From: Streptomyces aculeolatus
GTDB taxonomy: Bacteria > Actinomycetota > Actinomycetes > Streptomycetales > Streptomycetaceae
Length of the DNA: 64,000 nucleotides
Direction: 5' to 3'
Assembly (NCBI RefSeq): GCF_020400605.1
Contig: NZ_JAINRD010000001.1
Coordinates: forward strand, 868,001 to 932,000
Below, piece by piece: positions 1-30,634 of this stretch. Position numbers and translations under genes: made by a program. Within the stretch, counting starts at the first letter, position 1; each line of letters begins with the position of its first letter. A model generated the notes under the pieces. That model saw only the letters and a list, made by a program, of their open reading frames with translations, had not been told where the DNA came from and did not search any database.

Positions 1-154
1 AGCGGGGGGCGGACGGCCGGGGCGGGGGGCCGTCCCCGGGGTCCGTGCTGGCGGTCTTCGCTGTGGGGGGCATGCGTGACCTTCGCGCTGTACGGCGGCC
101 GGACTTCGGCGCCCACTCAGTATGCCGCCGGCCCCGGGCCCGTACCCTGATGAC

Positions 155-25717: not shown

Positions 25718-26796
25718 CCCTCGATCTCCTGCGGCGACCGCGACCCCGGCCCCACGTACCGCGCCGACGGCCGTACCAGCCGCCCCGTGCGCTTCTGTTC
25801 CAGGATGTGCGCCGACCACCCCGCGGTCCGCGCGCACGTGAACATCGACGTGAACATGTGCGCCGGCACCTCCGCGAAGTCCAGCACGATCGCCGCCCAG
25901 AACTCGACGTTCGTCTCCAGCACCCGGTCGGGCCGCCGCGCCCGCAGCTCCGCCAGCGCCGCCTTCTCCAGCGCCTCCGCGACCTCGTAGCGCGGCGCGC
26001 CGAGCTGCTTCGCCGTCCGCCGCAGCACGCGGGCCCGCGGGTCCTCGGCGCGGTAGACGCGGTGGCCGAAGCCCATCAGCCGCTCGCCGCCGTCCAGCGC
26101 CCGGCGCACGTAGCCCTCGGCGTCGCCGGTGCGCTCGATCTCCTCGATCATCCCGAGCACCCGCGACGGCGCGCCCCCGTGCAGCGGCCCGGACATCGCG
26201 CCGACCGCGCCGGACAGCGCCGCGGCCACGTCGGCGCCGGTGGAGGCGATGACGCGGGCGGTGAAGGTGGAGGCGTTCATGCCGTGTTCCGCGGCGGAGG
26301 TCCAGTAGGCGTCGACGGCGGCGACGTGCTTGGGGTCGGGCTCGCCGCGCCAGCGGATCATGAACCGCTCGACGACCGTACGGGCCTTGTCGATCTCCCG
26401 CTGCGGCACCATCGGCCGGCCCTGCCCGCGGGCGGACTGCGCGACGTACGACAGCGCCATGACGGCGGCCCGCGCCAGGTCCTCGCGGGCACGCGACTCG
26501 TCGATGTCGAGCAGCGGGCGCAGGCCCCAGACGGGCGCGAGCATCGCCAGCGCGGACTGGACGTCGACGCGGATGTCGCCGGAGTGCACGGGGATGGGGA
26601 ACGGCTCCGCGGGCGGCAGACCGGGTTTGAACGCGCCGTCGACCAGAAGACCCCAGACGTTTCCGAACGAGACGTGACCCACCAGGTCCTCGATGTCCAC
26701 ACCCCGATAGCGGAGGGCGCCGCCCTCCTTGTCGGGTTCGGCGATCTCCGTCTCGAAGGCGACGACTCCCTCGAGCCCGGGTACGAAGTCGGACAT
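25690..26796 (-). CDS. citrate synthase, actinobacterial type 2
   Basis: A 368-residue citrate synthase-fold enzyme that would condense acetyl-CoA with oxaloacetate. The family histidines are in [14 protein letters not shown] and [11 protein letters not shown], with [14 protein letters not shown] and [33 protein letters not shown] (given here in two linked blocks) near the C-terminus. The position of the catalytic Asp (NVDFYS in the E. coli enzyme) reads NVEFWA, a conservative Asp-to-Glu change. A TAGGGAG ribosome site precedes the ATG at 26796. It is probably the secondary citrate synthase; a 2-methylcitrate synthase role is possible. The gene converges on and overlaps the TetR gene. Confidence 0.87.
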
Positions 26797-27125: not shown

Positions 27126-27806
27126 GTGCGACATGTTGACGTTGACACCGAACGCTCCCTCGATCCGGCTGCCATGCGTGCGCGCTACCGCGCCGCTGGA
27201 CTGTCGGAGGACTCCCTCGCCGCCGATCCCTTCGAGCAGTTCGGCCGCTGGTTCACGCAGGCCGCCGAGAGCGGGCTGCACGAGCCCAACGCGATGGTCG
27301 TCTCCACCGCCGACGCCGAGGGCCGGCCCAGCTCCCGGACCGTGCTGCTGAAGCACGTGGACGAGCGGGGGTTCGTCTTCTACACCAACTACGGTTCGCG
27401 CAAGGGCCGCGAGCTGGCCGCCAACCCCCATGTGTCGCTGCTCTTCCCCTGGCACCCCGTCGCCCGCCAGGTGATCGTCGCGGGGGCGGCGGAGCGTACG
27501 GGCCGGGACGAGACGGTGGCGTACTTCCGCACCCGGCCGCACGGCTCGCAGTTGGGCGCGTGGGCGAGCGAGCAGTCGTCGGCGGTGGCGTCGCGGGCGG
27601 AGCTGGACCGGATGTACGCGGAGCTGGCGGACCGCTATCCGGAGGGCGAGCAGGTGCCGGCGCCGCCGGAGTGGGGCGGCTTCCGGGTCAGGCCGCGGAC
27701 GGTGGAGTTCTGGCAGGGCCGCGAGAACCGGCTCCACGACCGCCTCCGGTACGTACGCACCGAGGGCGCGGCCGGCGGCTGGACGGTGGAGCGCCTCTGC
27801 CCGTAG
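27126..27806 (+). CDS. pdxH: pyridoxamine/pyridoxine 5'-phosphate oxidase
   Basis: A 226-residue FMN enzyme that makes pyridoxal 5'-phosphate in vitamin B6 synthesis and salvage. The family landmarks are [23 protein letters not shown], the FMN-binding [29 protein letters not shown] (read in two blocks), [15 protein letters not shown] and the C-terminal signature [15 protein letters not shown]. The start is uncertain: GTG at 27120 or 27126 keeps the conserved DPAAMR segment, while ATG 27174 would cut into it. The gene stands alone, divergent from the citrate synthase gene. Confidence 0.92.
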
Positions 27807-27860
27807 CGGTGCGGGCGGCGTCCGGGGCGGCGGTGCACCCGCGCACCCGTACCCGCCGGG

Positions 27861-27929
27861 AAAAAGGGCGACCCGCGGCCCATTCCCCTTCAGGGGAGCC
27901 GGTCGGACGTACCGGCGGACCGCGGGTCG
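27861..27929 (-). terminator. intrinsic terminator with U-tract for the small transcript
   Basis: Read on the minus strand, CGACCCGCGG (from 27929) pairs with CCGCGGGTCG (ending 27870). The enclosed region folds into two further hairpins: CCGGT...ACCGG and TCCCC-TTCA-GGGGA in plus-strand reading. The stem is followed by GCCCTTTTTC. A T-tract is unusual in this genome and strongly indicates factor-independent termination on the minus strand. Confidence 0.7.
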
Positions 27930-28012
27930 GGTGAACTGCTTGGGATAAGGGCCGGCTGGGCGCGTCCTAGGCGCCCCGGTCCGGCATTGCGCTCAAGCGC
28001 GACGGCGGACCA

Positions 28013-28051
28013 CTAGCCCGCAGTCACCTCACGCGTCCGGTACTTCATCAT
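28013..28051 (-). CDS. 12-residue peptide MMKYRTREVTAG
   Basis: ATG at 28051, stop TAG at 28013-28015. An unusually good ribosome site (GGGAGGTGG) lies 8 bases before the start, and a consensus-like promoter and terminator bracket the gene, which makes chance unlikely. The peptide is basic and hydrophilic, with no membrane segment and no obvious attenuator-type run of one amino acid. I do not recognise a named family. Confidence 0.55.
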   Translation of the reverse strand: MMKYRTREVTAG

Positions 28052-28084
28052 CTGCCGAACCACCTCCCTTCTCGTGTGCCTCAC

Positions 28085-28113
28085 ACACTAGGCACGCCTC
28101 TGCGGCCACTCAA
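28085..28113 (-). promoter_or_regulatory. sigma-70-type promoter of the small transcript
   Basis: Minus strand: TTGAGT (28113-28108), a 17-base spacer, then TAGTGT (28090-28085). Spacing and hexamers fit HrdB-type promoters. The predicted start point is near 28078, about 10 bases before the ribosome site region. Confidence 0.6.
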
Positions 28114-28232
28114 CTGATTTCTGCTGCGCAACGATTTCGGCGGAATGGGGTGTGTGCTGCGTCACGTTCGAGTTGAATGATCCGGGTGCACCACACCACG
28201 CACACGACGCCGCGGCGAGCAGGGGGTGCCTG

Positions 28233-29777
28233 ATGAGCGCGACCCGGCGTACCAACCGGGACCGCAGGAACGCCTCCGGCGAACAGGCCGCGGACGCTCC
28301 GGAAGCGGGAGACGACGCCGCCGGGTCCCCGCCTGCGGCGGCGGACGCGGCGGCAGCGGACGCGCCGGCGCAGGACCGCCGCGCCGCGGCCCCCGACCTG
28401 CTGGTGGCGCTGCTCGACGGCATGGACGCCGCCCTGTGCGCCTTCGACGCCGACGGCGTCGTCACCCACTGGAACCGCGAGGCCGAGCGGCTGCTCGGCT
28501 GGACCGCCGCCGAGGCCGTCGGCCGCCGCGGGCTGGCCGGCTGGGCGGCCCGCGCGGAGGACGCCGCCGAGATGGAGGCGCGCCTGATGGGCGCGATGGA
28601 CGCGCCGGGGCGGCAGGTGCAGGAGTTCGCCCTGGTGCGCAAGGACGGCGGCCGCGTGCTCGTACGCACCCAGACGTCCGCCGTCCGCCCGGGCAGAGGC
28701 GGGGCCGGCGGCGAGGCGGGCGGTGTCGCGGTCGGGGTCTACTGCGCGTTCAGCGAGGTCCACGCGCAGATGGACCTGGAGCGGTCGATCGCCTTCAGCG
28801 AGGCGCTGTGCGAGGACGCCGCCTGGGGCGTGCTCCTCGTGGACGCGGACCTGCGGCCTGCGCTGGCCAACGGCCAGGCGGCGCGCGTGCTGCGCGCCCG
28901 GCGCTCGGGGCTGCTCGGGCGCCCCTTCGGCGAGCTGCTGGAGCAGGGCGCGGAGGAGGTCGAGAGCGCGCTGCAGCACGTCCTGGCGCAGGGCAGCGCC
29001 GCGGTCCCCGCCGACGTGTGGGTGACGGTGCGCGGCGAGGCCGGCGGCGATCCGGCGGCACGGCGGCGCTGCCTGCGCGGTGCGTTCGTACGCCTCGCCT
29101 CGCCGCTGGCCGAGCACCCGGTGCCGCTCGGCGTCGGCTGGCTCTTCCAGGACGTCACCGAGGCGAAGCTCGCCGAGGACGCGGCCTCCGTGCTGCGCTT
29201 CCGCGACCACCAGCTGCACCGCGCCTCGCGCGCGGCGGCCGAGTGCGAGGACCCGATGGAGGCGGCGACGGTCTACCTGGACTTCGCGCTCGCCGGCTTC
29301 GCCGACCACGCGCTGGTCGACCTGGCCGCCGCCCCCGCGGAGCCCGGCTCACCGCCCGGCCCCGGCGCCCCGCACGACGCGGGTGCGCCGCCCGGCCCGG
29401 TGCAGCTCACCCGGGCCGCGGCCACCCCCGCCGAGGGCCCGGGACCGTGCCTGCCCGCCGGGCCGCACGGCTTCCCCGTGCGCTATCCGGCCGGGCACCC
29501 GGCGCTGCAGGCCGTGGAGCGCGGCGGCACGGTGCGCGCGGGCTGCGGCGGCGTGGACCCGGAGGTCGCGGAGGGCTGGTCGGTGGCGCGGAAGTGGCCG
29601 CCGGGCACGATGCACGCGCTCTGCACGGTGCTGCGCAGCCGCGGCCGGACGCTGGGGGTCGTGACGTTCCTGCGCGGCGGCGGCCGGCGCGGCTTCACGC
29701 GGCAGGACGCGGCGTACGCGGAGGACGTGGCCGTACGGGTCGCGGCCTCGCTGGACCTGGCGGAGCTGCTGGGTTAG
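28233..29777 (+). CDS. PAS-domain sensor protein without a recognised output domain
   Basis: A 514-residue cytoplasmic protein. After a disordered N-terminus of about 55 residues come two PAS domains: residues about 60-160 (LDGMDAALCAFDADGVVTHWNREAERLLGW) and 190-290 (EDAAWGVLLVDADLRPALANGQAARVL). A GAF-like region follows to the C-terminus (HALVDLAAAPAEP, LGVVTFLRGGGRRGFTRQDAAYAEDVAVRVAASLDLAELLG). The last stretch is what normally links GAF domains to a SpoIIE-type PP2C phosphatase, but the phosphatase is absent. It may act as a sensor that works through a partner. The ATG at 28233 was chosen over 28152 because coding-like composition begins there. Confidence 0.75.
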   Translation: MSATRRTNRDRRNASGEQAADAPEAGDDAAGSPPAAADAAAADAPAQDRRAAAPDLLVALLDGMDAALCAFDADGVVTHWNREAERLLGWTAAEAVGRRGLAGWAARAEDAAEMEARLMGAMDAPGRQVQEFALVRKDGGRVLVRTQTSAVRPGRGGAGGEAGGVAVGVYCAFSEVHAQMDLERSIAFSEALCEDAAWGVLLVDADLRPALANGQAARVLRARRSGLLGRPFGELLEQGAEEVESALQHVLAQGSAAVPADVWVTVRGEAGGDPAARRRCLRGAFVRLASPLAEHPVPLGVGWLFQDVTEAKLAEDAASVLRFRDHQLHRASRAAAECEDPMEAATVYLDFALAGFADHALVDLAAAPAEPGSPPGPGAPHDAGAPPGPVQLTRAAATPAEGPGPCLPAGPHGFPVRYPAGHPALQAVERGGTVRAGCGGVDPEVAEGWSVARKWPPGTMHALCTVLRSRGRTLGVVTFLRGGGRRGFTRQDAAYAEDVAVRVAASLDLAELLG

Positions 29778-29947: not shown

Positions 29948-30634
29948 ATGTCCGGACTGATCGACACAACGGAGATGTATCTCCGCACCATCCTCGAACT
30001 CGAAGAGGAGGGCGTCGTCCCCATGCGCGCGAGAATCGCGGAGCGGCTCGACCAGAGCGGCCCCACGGTGAGCCAGACCGTCGCCCGCATGGAGCGGGAC
30101 GGCCTGGTGCGCGTGGCCGGGGACAGGCATCTGGAGCTGACGGGAGAAGGGCGCATGCTCGCGACCCGGGTGATGCGCAAGCACCGCCTGGCGGAGTGTC
30201 TGCTGGTCGACGTGATCGGCCTGGAGTGGGAGCACGTGCACGCGGAGGCGTGCCGCTGGGAGCACGTGATGAGCGAGGCGGTGGAGCGCCGCGTGCTGAC
30301 GCTGCTGAAGCACCCGACCGAGTCGCCGTACGGGAACCCGATCCCGGGCCTGGAGGAGCTGGGCGAGGAGGCCGAGGCGGACCCGTTCCTGGACGAGGGC
30401 ATGGTGAGCCTGGGCGCGCTGGGCCCGGACGCCGGGACGGTGATCATCCGCCGGATCGGGGAGCCGATCCAGAAGGACTCCGCGCTCATGTACACGCTGC
30501 GGCGGGCGGGTGTGCAGCCGGGCGCCGTGGTGAGCGTGACGGACTCGGCGGGCGGCGTGCTCGTCGGCAGCGGCGGCGAGGCCGCCGAGCTGGACGCCGA
30601 GGTCGCTTCGCACGTCTTCGTGGCCAAGCGCTAG
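29948..30634 (+). CDS. dmdR1: DtxR/IdeR family iron-dependent repressor (DmdR1-like)
   Basis: A 228-residue metalloregulator. The N-terminal winged helix (MSGLIDTTEMYLRTILELEE, RIAERLDQSGPTVSQTVARMERDGL) is followed by a dimerisation/metal domain and a C-terminal SH3-like domain (about residues 150-228). The metal ligands fall at DtxR numbering: Met10, Cys102, Glu105 and His106 at the primary site, and His79, Glu83 and His98 at the ancillary site. With Fe2+ bound, such proteins repress siderophore and iron uptake genes. The start is fixed by the conserved MSGLIDTTEMYLRTI. I see no obvious iron box in the 170-bp upstream region. Confidence 0.93.
   Translation: MSGLIDTTEMYLRTILELEEEGVVPMRARIAERLDQSGPTVSQTVARMERDGLVRVAGDRHLELTGEGRMLATRVMRKHRLAECLLVDVIGLEWEHVHAEACRWEHVMSEAVERRVLTLLKHPTESPYGNPIPGLEELGEEAEADPFLDEGMVSLGALGPDAGTVIIRRIGEPIQKDSALMYTLRRAGVQPGAVVSVTDSAGGVLVGSGGEAAELDAEVASHVFVAKR

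Follow-up and report, generated by a model that had tools for sequence, protein, structure and literature searches.

A stand-alone Streptomyces gene for a conserved small RNA with a 16S rRNA tail complement and a mini-ORF embedded in its fold

Dual-function sRNAs, such as SgrS/SgrT, RNAIII/hld and SR1, are among the closest known counterparts of the RNA described here, and resemble it in that one small transcript holds both a short ORF and regulatory RNA parts. They differ from it in that here the ORF lies inside the fold, the peptide is not conserved and the Shine-Dalgarno (SD) sequence is complementary to the 16S rRNA tail over its full length. A second point of comparison is with the translation-controlled leader RNAs (attenuators and uORF switches): as in these, translation of the mini-ORF would rearrange downstream helices, but unlike them the RNA has no cis-regulated gene, carries its own terminator and is flanked by neighbors that vary by lineage.

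The window (the whole 64,000-nucleotide stretch of Streptomyces aculeolatus DNA that was analyzed) features a match to the Rfam family RF02471 (80.5 bits against a cut-off of 45, E = 2.1e-17), named Ms_IGR-5 or 'Actinobacteria sRNA' and typed by Rfam as an sRNA gene, to which both this element and the loci recovered with the covariance model belong. We know of no target of this RNA. In the available portions of the published reports, Ms_IGR-5 is marked as RNA-seq-validated in S. lividans (PMC8079986), accounts for one of the two Rfam hits in a set of 139 S. avermitilis sRNA transcription units delimited by TSSs and TEPs (PMC8780764), and overlaps ncMSMEG15794c of M. smegmatis (PMC10454040). 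The homologs from M. abscessus and M. smegmatis display significant ribosome-protected reads, for which the authors, in the part of their account available, found coding hard to assess (PMC4974804) and which could instead reflect docked 30S subunits or protected structure. Within those same portions, the S. lividans, S. avermitilis and mycobacterial reports give no function, and the openly licensed PMC literature as far as accessible, supplements aside, yielded no description of the mini-ORF, the complement of the 16S tail or a spread beyond Actinobacteria. Hence, the family and its transcripts were known already, and what is added here is that the mini-ORF is conserved, that the SD complements the 16S tail, that the fold takes in the ORF and that other phyla have the RNA too. 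An identity with scr4389 of S. coelicolor was discarded, having been suggested by gene numbering alone.

The element forms a complete small unit between pdxH and a PAS-domain gene, all parts of which can be read in the sequence (Table 1); promoter, ORF and terminator lie on the minus strand where the preliminary description had placed them, and its observation holds. As an autonomous gene, the unit would yield a structured RNA of about 215 nt, with a 5' end that, judged by position, is likely near 28077.

Table 1. Features of the small RNA gene and their positions in the window
Feature	Positions	Strand	Basis
Promoter: -35 TTGAGT (28113-28108), 17-nt spacer, -10 TAGTGT (28090-28085)	28085..28113	-	Sequence
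P1, 5' strand (CACGAG)	28071..28076	-	Five of six pairs with 28035-28030 here; covariation
Super-Shine-Dalgarno, 16-nt continuous complement (G-U included) of the 16S rRNA 3' end	28057..28072	-	
Mini-ORF, ATG to TAG (MMKYRTREVTAG), 12 codons plus stop	28013..28051	-	Conservation of frame, start and stop
GGAC within the mini-ORF, likely partner of the terminator loop (pseudoknot PK)	28035..28038	-	Comparative
P1, 3' strand (CGCGTG) within the mini-ORF	28030..28035	-	Base 28035 common to the PK tetramer
P3, 5' strand (GGTGACTGC) within the mini-ORF	28020..28028	-	Covariation
Conserved 3' box (CTTATCCCAAGCAGTTCACC), with GCAG-T-TCACC as 3' strand of P3 (a single T bulged in this copy)	27930..27949	-	
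GTCC, apical loop of the terminator hairpin, likely partner of GGAC (PK)	27905..27908	-	
Intrinsic-type terminator, branched GC-rich hairpin plus T5	27861..27929	-	Sequence, folding
Whole RNA, match to RF02471 (Ms_IGR-5)	27863..28077	-	Covariance model

Folding of the terminator stretch, 27950-27861, gives -46.7 kcal/mol (z = -4.4), a value reached in none of 200 shuffles, and that of the longer 28085-27850 gives z = -2.4 (reached in 3 of 200). Simple consensus scanners for promoters and terminators detected neither at the unit, probably because of hexamers with only 7 of the 12 sigma-70 consensus letters, a branched stem and a T run that begins 3 bases beyond it; support for the unit is therefore mainly comparative, through the RF02471 match. 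Promoters of the same form (TTGnnn-16..19-TAnnnT) stand upstream of the element in 117 of 170 Actinomycetota (0.6 expected from shuffles), 23 of 33 Acidobacteriota (0.1 expected), 12 of 30 Zixibacteria and 2 of 2 'Deltaproteobacteria' sequences. This form is found in 0 of 14 Sumerlaeota sequences (loci L314-L329), though the RNA is conserved there, and these copies possibly use another promoter type. Identity with tmRNA was rejected: ARAGORN predicted no tRNA or tmRNA gene in 27700-28300, hence no tRNA-like domain, and there was no Rfam tmRNA match. Elsewhere in the window, a match to Rfam MIMT1_1 at 30317-30407 (E = 0.5, under its cut-off) is ascribed to chance.

The conservation that the preliminary description had singled out as a check is found in the relatives: RF02471 scores above its cut-off in 54 of 61 of them, with one such copy each (36 of 37 within the genus), and the docking site, a frame of about 10-20 codons and the fixed stop are kept within the fold. 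Across the phylum, RF02471 matches 70 of 396 drawn genomes, 35 of them above cut-off, and 155 of the same 396 are found by R1, a 5'-half model trained on 55 sequences, the genomes of which are among those searched. RF02471 had no match in 14 control genomes, and a distant blastn search found none in phages and plasmids. As a rule there is one copy per genome. Second matches were seen in G281 (two strong R1 matches on C163 and C207, 57.4 and 53.8 bits, in a genome with 7% contamination), in G047 (contig C377, RF02471, sub-threshold at 27.6 bits) and, with R1, in G546, G565, G799, G411 and G422. Neither model matches seven 100% complete genomes of the same class (G053 (f5), G271 (f16), G282, G314, G325, G373, G400 (f17)), in which the RNA may be lost or too divergent.

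The confinement to Actinobacteria suggested by the Rfam description does not hold. Outside the phylum, the matches listed by a pattern scan include Acidobacteriota, Zixibacteria, Sumerlaeota and two 'Deltaproteobacteria' MAGs. Searches with R1, which covered the phyla that had supplied a seed genome, recovered (seeds included) 32 of 149 genomes from the phylum to which a Bryobacterales MAG belongs, 43 of 118 from that of a Zixibacteria MAG and 17 of 40 from that of a Sumerlaeota MAG. The expected architecture could be anchored in 27 of 30 Acidobacteriota-search, 30 of 30 Zixibacteria and 14 of 17 Sumerlaeota loci, counts that are non-independent since the anchoring rewarded the expected stop; L253 and L255 have a later stop, and a few weak R1 hits (e.g., L281) do not display this architecture. 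The RF02471 cut-off itself is passed by four Zixibacteria loci (L151, L289, L299 and L312) and by 2 of the 12 Acidobacteriota loci scanned (L135 and L160), of which L160 looks actinobacterial and may be mis-binned. In the phylum of the two 'Deltaproteobacteria' MAGs, each R1 search returned its seed alone (0 of 147 others, the same genomes in both), which serves as a negative control, and these two copies possibly stem from transfer or mis-binning. The spread over Acidobacteriota, Zixibacteria and Sumerlaeota implies either a great age of this RNA or its movement from one phylum to another.

Counting G-U pairs, the SD sequence AGAAGGGAGGTGGTTC can form an uninterrupted duplex with the terminal 16 bases of 16S rRNA, GGATCACCTCCTTTCT as read in the genome, the 3' end of the rRNA being presumed. 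The predicted duplex of -26.3 kcal/mol compares with a median of -8.8 and a best value of -20.1 among 260 heuristically called genes from 464 kb of the same genome, each of which was given its best start; none is as strong. This is the 'very strong ribosome site' of the preliminary description, which missed both its complementarity to the whole 16S tail and the membership of the family in Rfam. The 15-base form GAARGGAGGTGRTYC has two occurrences in the 9-Mb assembly, one at this locus and one opposite the 16S 3' end on the other strand, and near-identical sites, with variants such as GGAGGATGATCC, are displayed in the other phyla, including at loci found by a model without any SD pattern. Across the compared sequences, the RNA bears a 14-16 nt complement of the 16S tail just past the presumed transcription start, inside the predicted loop closed by the helix P1. 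A duplex of such length may slow initiation rather than promote it.

Downstream of this site, 107 of 109 loci found with RF02471 fit a regular expression for two GAGG motifs, and 106 of these 107 stop exactly at the fifth codon after GAG; this first expression required GGAGGTGNT and GAGGTG[AG], and all 109 were rechecked with a looser one; a separate check placed the match at the element. For further analysis we assembled 250 distinct sequences (170 Actinomycetota, 33 Acidobacteriota, 30 Zixibacteria, 14 Sumerlaeota, 2 'Deltaproteobacteria' and 1 doubtful), leaving out duplicates, L103 and L105 (for which the expression was too strict, the motif being present in both), L106 (stop in another frame), L051 (3' end unanchored), L253 and L255 (stop further downstream, module repeated internally in frame), L281, L326, L328 and L330. 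From seven codons before GAG onward, the mini-ORF frame is free of stops throughout this set, and the other two frames are interrupted in 224 and 165 sequences. An in-frame ATG, GTG or TTG stands at SD distance in 219 of 250 (other frames, 11 and 47), with the start codon 7-14 nt past GGAGG and an ORF of 10-22 codons, 12 in 136 of the 250. The remaining 31 start, likewise in frame, with CTG (17), ATT (8), ATC (4) or ACG (2), each of which singly is weak evidence for a start. AUU at the start position recurs in two phyla, in L293, L298, L301, L302 and L305 from the Zixibacteria search and in the actinomycetotal L092, L093 and L096; this codon is otherwise known as the start of infC, where it is under IF3 control. 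Long SD pairing along with unusual starts (CTG, ATT, ATC and ACG in 31 of 250 here) recalls the extended-SD sites with non-canonical start codons of Staphylococcus aureus, which, as presented in the available part of that report, are mRNA starts (PMC13009471), whereas here they belong to a separate structured RNA gene. In L253 and L255, both from the Acidobacteriota search, the GAGGTG module is repeated internally and in frame (..EVSYRTREVAAT and ..EVNYRTREVVAT, respectively), and the stop lies past the second copy.

Comparative analysis points to three pairings that involve the mini-ORF. In the first, P1, the bases immediately upstream of the SD (CACGAG) pair with the codons directly ahead of GAG (CGCGTG), with variants such as CACG:CGTG, CCAG:CTGG, CTTC:GAAG, CGTA:TACG and CGGT:ACCG. 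It has at least 4 contiguous pairs in 185 of the 250 sequences, with a mean helix of 4.03 against 2.85 (sd 0.09) when partners are swapped set-wide; with the partner slid by -1 it is still found in 68 of 250, part of which is absorbed by the allowed offsets, and with other slides in 0 to 11. Swaps within groups gave real versus swapped means of 4.13/2.99 for Actinomycetota, 3.42/2.63 for Acidobacteriota, 4.10/3.46 for Zixibacteria and 4.50/3.83 for Sumerlaeota, with 0 of 100 swaps reaching the real value in each. Part of the pairing survives the swaps (helices of 4 or more pairs occur in 127 of 170 Actinomycetota, where swapping leaves a mean of 62.9, and in 24 of 30 Zixibacteria, where it leaves 16.1) because the groups share letters. 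In a fixed register over 103 actinobacterial sequences, P1 covariation is 0.334 against 0.122 (sd 0.013), a level reached in 0 of 200 shuffles, with slid registers at 0.031-0.117. By eye, P1 is weak or absent in several Bryobacterales.

The second helix, P3, pairs GGTGACTGC of the ORF with GCAGTCACC of the 3' box. With the 3' strand placed by a score that itself rewarded pairing, the covariation was 0.446 against 0.237; hence, it was retested with the 3' strand placed by motif only, which is workable in 79 of 103 sequences and gave 0.427 against 0.229 (sd 0.017) for the inner five pairs, with 0 of 100 shuffles as high. Slid registers range from 0.005 to 0.135, and those at -1 and +3 are also above their own shuffles, at the far lower values of 0.048 and 0.135. 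The outer GGTG:CACC pairs are near-invariant and thus uninformative. The 3' box itself (AAUCC..CAG..CACC) is recovered by regular expression in 173 of 250 sequences versus 76 of 1250 shuffles. By eye, Zixibacteria loci (L284-L313) seem to conserve a further helix, GTTGGG..CCCAAC, just before CAG..TACC, and in the same loci ACTTAG around the stop could pair with CTAAGT.

The third pairing, a likely pseudoknot in the Actinomycetota, the only sequences in which it was sought, sets GGAC of the ORF against GTCC of the terminator loop. GTCC falls within the script-chosen loop window (by a finder that demanded [GA]TC[CG]) in 85 of the 95 sequences with GGAC, and the other 10 show it in the stretch by eye; among the 8 with another tetramer, 6 show exact complements (GGAT/ATCC and CGAC/GTCG, three each) and 2 are G-U versions. 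The sequences being related, this amounts to perhaps two or three independent changes. A competing helix, P2, between GGUCC of the SD and GGAC of the ORF was rejected, as its SD side does not track the changes in the ORF tetramer, and for this reason the pseudoknot with the terminator loop is preferred. The Rfam consensus structure differs from ours: it pairs model positions 14-19 (the SD) with 55-60 (codons past GAGGTG) in place of P1 and the pseudoknot. In these comparisons, the 3' half of the mini-ORF (its last approximately eight codons) constitutes one strand of P1, of P3 and, in Actinomycetota, of the likely pseudoknot.

As the strand shared by these three pairings is the strand that a ribosome reads, we tentatively posit a structured RNA that is captured by ribosomes and switched by translation between a compact and an open state, with the 3' box as its output. 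The display of the site, the frame and the helices are its sequence-supported elements. On this proposal, a 30S subunit would dock at the displayed 16S-complementary site, and the ribosome, to translate the mini-ORF, would have to part P1, the pseudoknot and P3, all three of which would be opened in a run of 12 codons. The RNA would thus be compact without a ribosome and open with one, and the open form would free the 3' box (AAUCC...CAG..CACC) and the GUCC loop. The signal would be the act of translating rather than the peptide, such that the RNA would report or buffer translation-initiation capacity; in the simplest case, the freed 3' box would pair with other RNAs, or the lifetime of the RNA itself would change. 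The unusual start codons would fit an initiation that depends on 30S supply or on the stringency of initiation factors. A broader, and still doubtful, generalization is that these RNAs constitute a class of free-standing translation-initiation sensors, spread over at least four phyla with the actinobacterial sRNA as one branch, that offer the 30S subunit a near-perfect anti-SD complement, often followed by a weak or non-canonical start (UUG, CUG or AUU), and in which each initiation would unfold the RNA and free its 3' box. We know of no RNA regulator that senses free 30S subunits or initiation stringency, and this would, if true, be a new kind. In any event, a conserved Rfam sRNA gains a concrete design, namely a docking site near the limit of 16S-tail pairing, a selected frame and helices that translation could break, which makes its function testable by point mutations.

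Two other readings, both of which we consider unlikely, start from the same elements. The RNA could act on the ribosome itself, as a decoy or brake sitting on the anti-SD tail of 30S subunits, with the mini-ORF only letting the bound ribosome leave in an orderly manner. The 16-nt complementarity beyond that of all 260 compared genes, its retention across phyla, the very short ORF and the placement of the site in the P1-closed loop all agree with such a role; however, it leaves the conservation of P3, the 3' box and the pseudoknot as well as the strict frame unexplained, and would need an abundance near that of free 30S subunits. Alternatively, it could be a conventional trans-acting sRNA with the 3' box as its seed, in which the ORF and SD serve only as protection against RNases or as a link to translation. 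In favor of this are its own promoter and terminator, the conserved AAUCC..CAG..CACC box and the Rfam typing as sRNA, but across the 250 sequences the box is less strictly conserved than the SD and the frame, the box pairs internally with the ORF, and the published accounts of Ms_IGR-5 name no target in the portions available.

The frame itself bears on whether the product is a peptide of 10-22 residues, be it a regulatory or a membrane-active mini-protein, as the strongly conserved translation signals might suggest. This we hold to be very unlikely: 15-19 kinds of amino acids occur at each of codons -6 to -3 before the core, and the core residues correspond to base-paired or invariant nucleotides, GAGGTG (core Glu-Val) being invariant as nucleotides in 109 of 109 loci found by RF02471 and its neighboring codons changing jointly with their base-pairing partners. 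Moreover, in L106 (G363:C107), where the box and a terminator-like hairpin are present, GAGGTG and the usual TAG lie in different frames, and a frame of 11-12 codons starting with ATT at the start position is open to the same TAG, so that a different peptide would be encoded from another frame of the core. As the peptide varies while the frame is kept, selection seems, from these comparisons, to act on translation itself and to let the peptide drift. Of the preliminary description's 'peptide gene, regulatory RNA or both', the stand-alone unit with both an RNA and an ORF is hence well supported, but a gene for a 12-residue peptide is not, given its varying residues. The opposite reading, that the ORF is incidental to a purely structural RNA that maintains GAGGTG...TAG at the RNA level, can draw on the paired codons around GAGGTG and their fixed spacing, yet is most improbable. 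Three stop codons are used (TAG 78, TGA 17 and TAA 9 in 104 distinct actinobacterial sequences), and the stop stands at the fifth codon after GAG in 120 of 120 among the matches listed for a pattern that named neither start nor stop; this pattern imposed AAAGGAGGTGGTCC and GAGGTGRCYG, matched at least 120 stretches, of which the 120 listed were all tested, and shares 80 of these with the 250-sequence set. Modulo 3, each possible value of the SD-to-GAGGTG offset occurs (in 97, 99 and 54 of 250) with the start codon still in the right frame, and the frame is therefore no by-product of fixed spacing. Further, L106 has its open frame, and the mycobacterial ribosome-protected reads, as far as the available part of that report goes, also stand against an incidental ORF (PMC4974804).

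The translation-switched RNA that we favor is also a stand-alone one as judged by its neighbors. The gene that the preliminary description named pdxH, which is similar to a PNPOx gene, ends at 27806 and is convergent with the unit, the PAS-domain gene (also named there) is divergent with its ATG at 28233, and the nearest likely downstream gene on the same strand, a citrate synthase, starts at 26796, about 1.1 kb past the terminator, in agreement with the earlier statement that the unit drives no adjacent gene. By tblastn of the window proteins, a convergent pdxH is found in 26 of 107 loci, mostly in the window's genus, with citrate synthase or unrelated genes at others, and many loci outside the genus have no query gene in their 1.5-kb flanks. 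Pfam searches on 30 neighboring genes revealed no downstream family common across organism families, and the ten co-directional downstream genes (from ten loci) have different best Pfam families, save one pair whose hits share alpha/beta-hydrolase or metal-hydrolase names in distinct families. That the RNA is a leader peptide or attenuator of a downstream gene, as its short ORF, hairpins and terminator could suggest, is hardly credible, since the downstream neighbors differ between lineages, pdxH is convergent at this locus as at others (26 of 107 in total), and the ORF has no amino-acid run. THAP4-like convergent genes recur in four loci, all of family f6. Citrate synthase, rather than pdxH, is the nearest detected convergent neighbor in L008, L019, L035, L038, L039, L041, L048, L060, L062, L064, L068, L073, L077, L079 and L081, as if the pdxH-citrate synthase block had been inverted beside the RNA.
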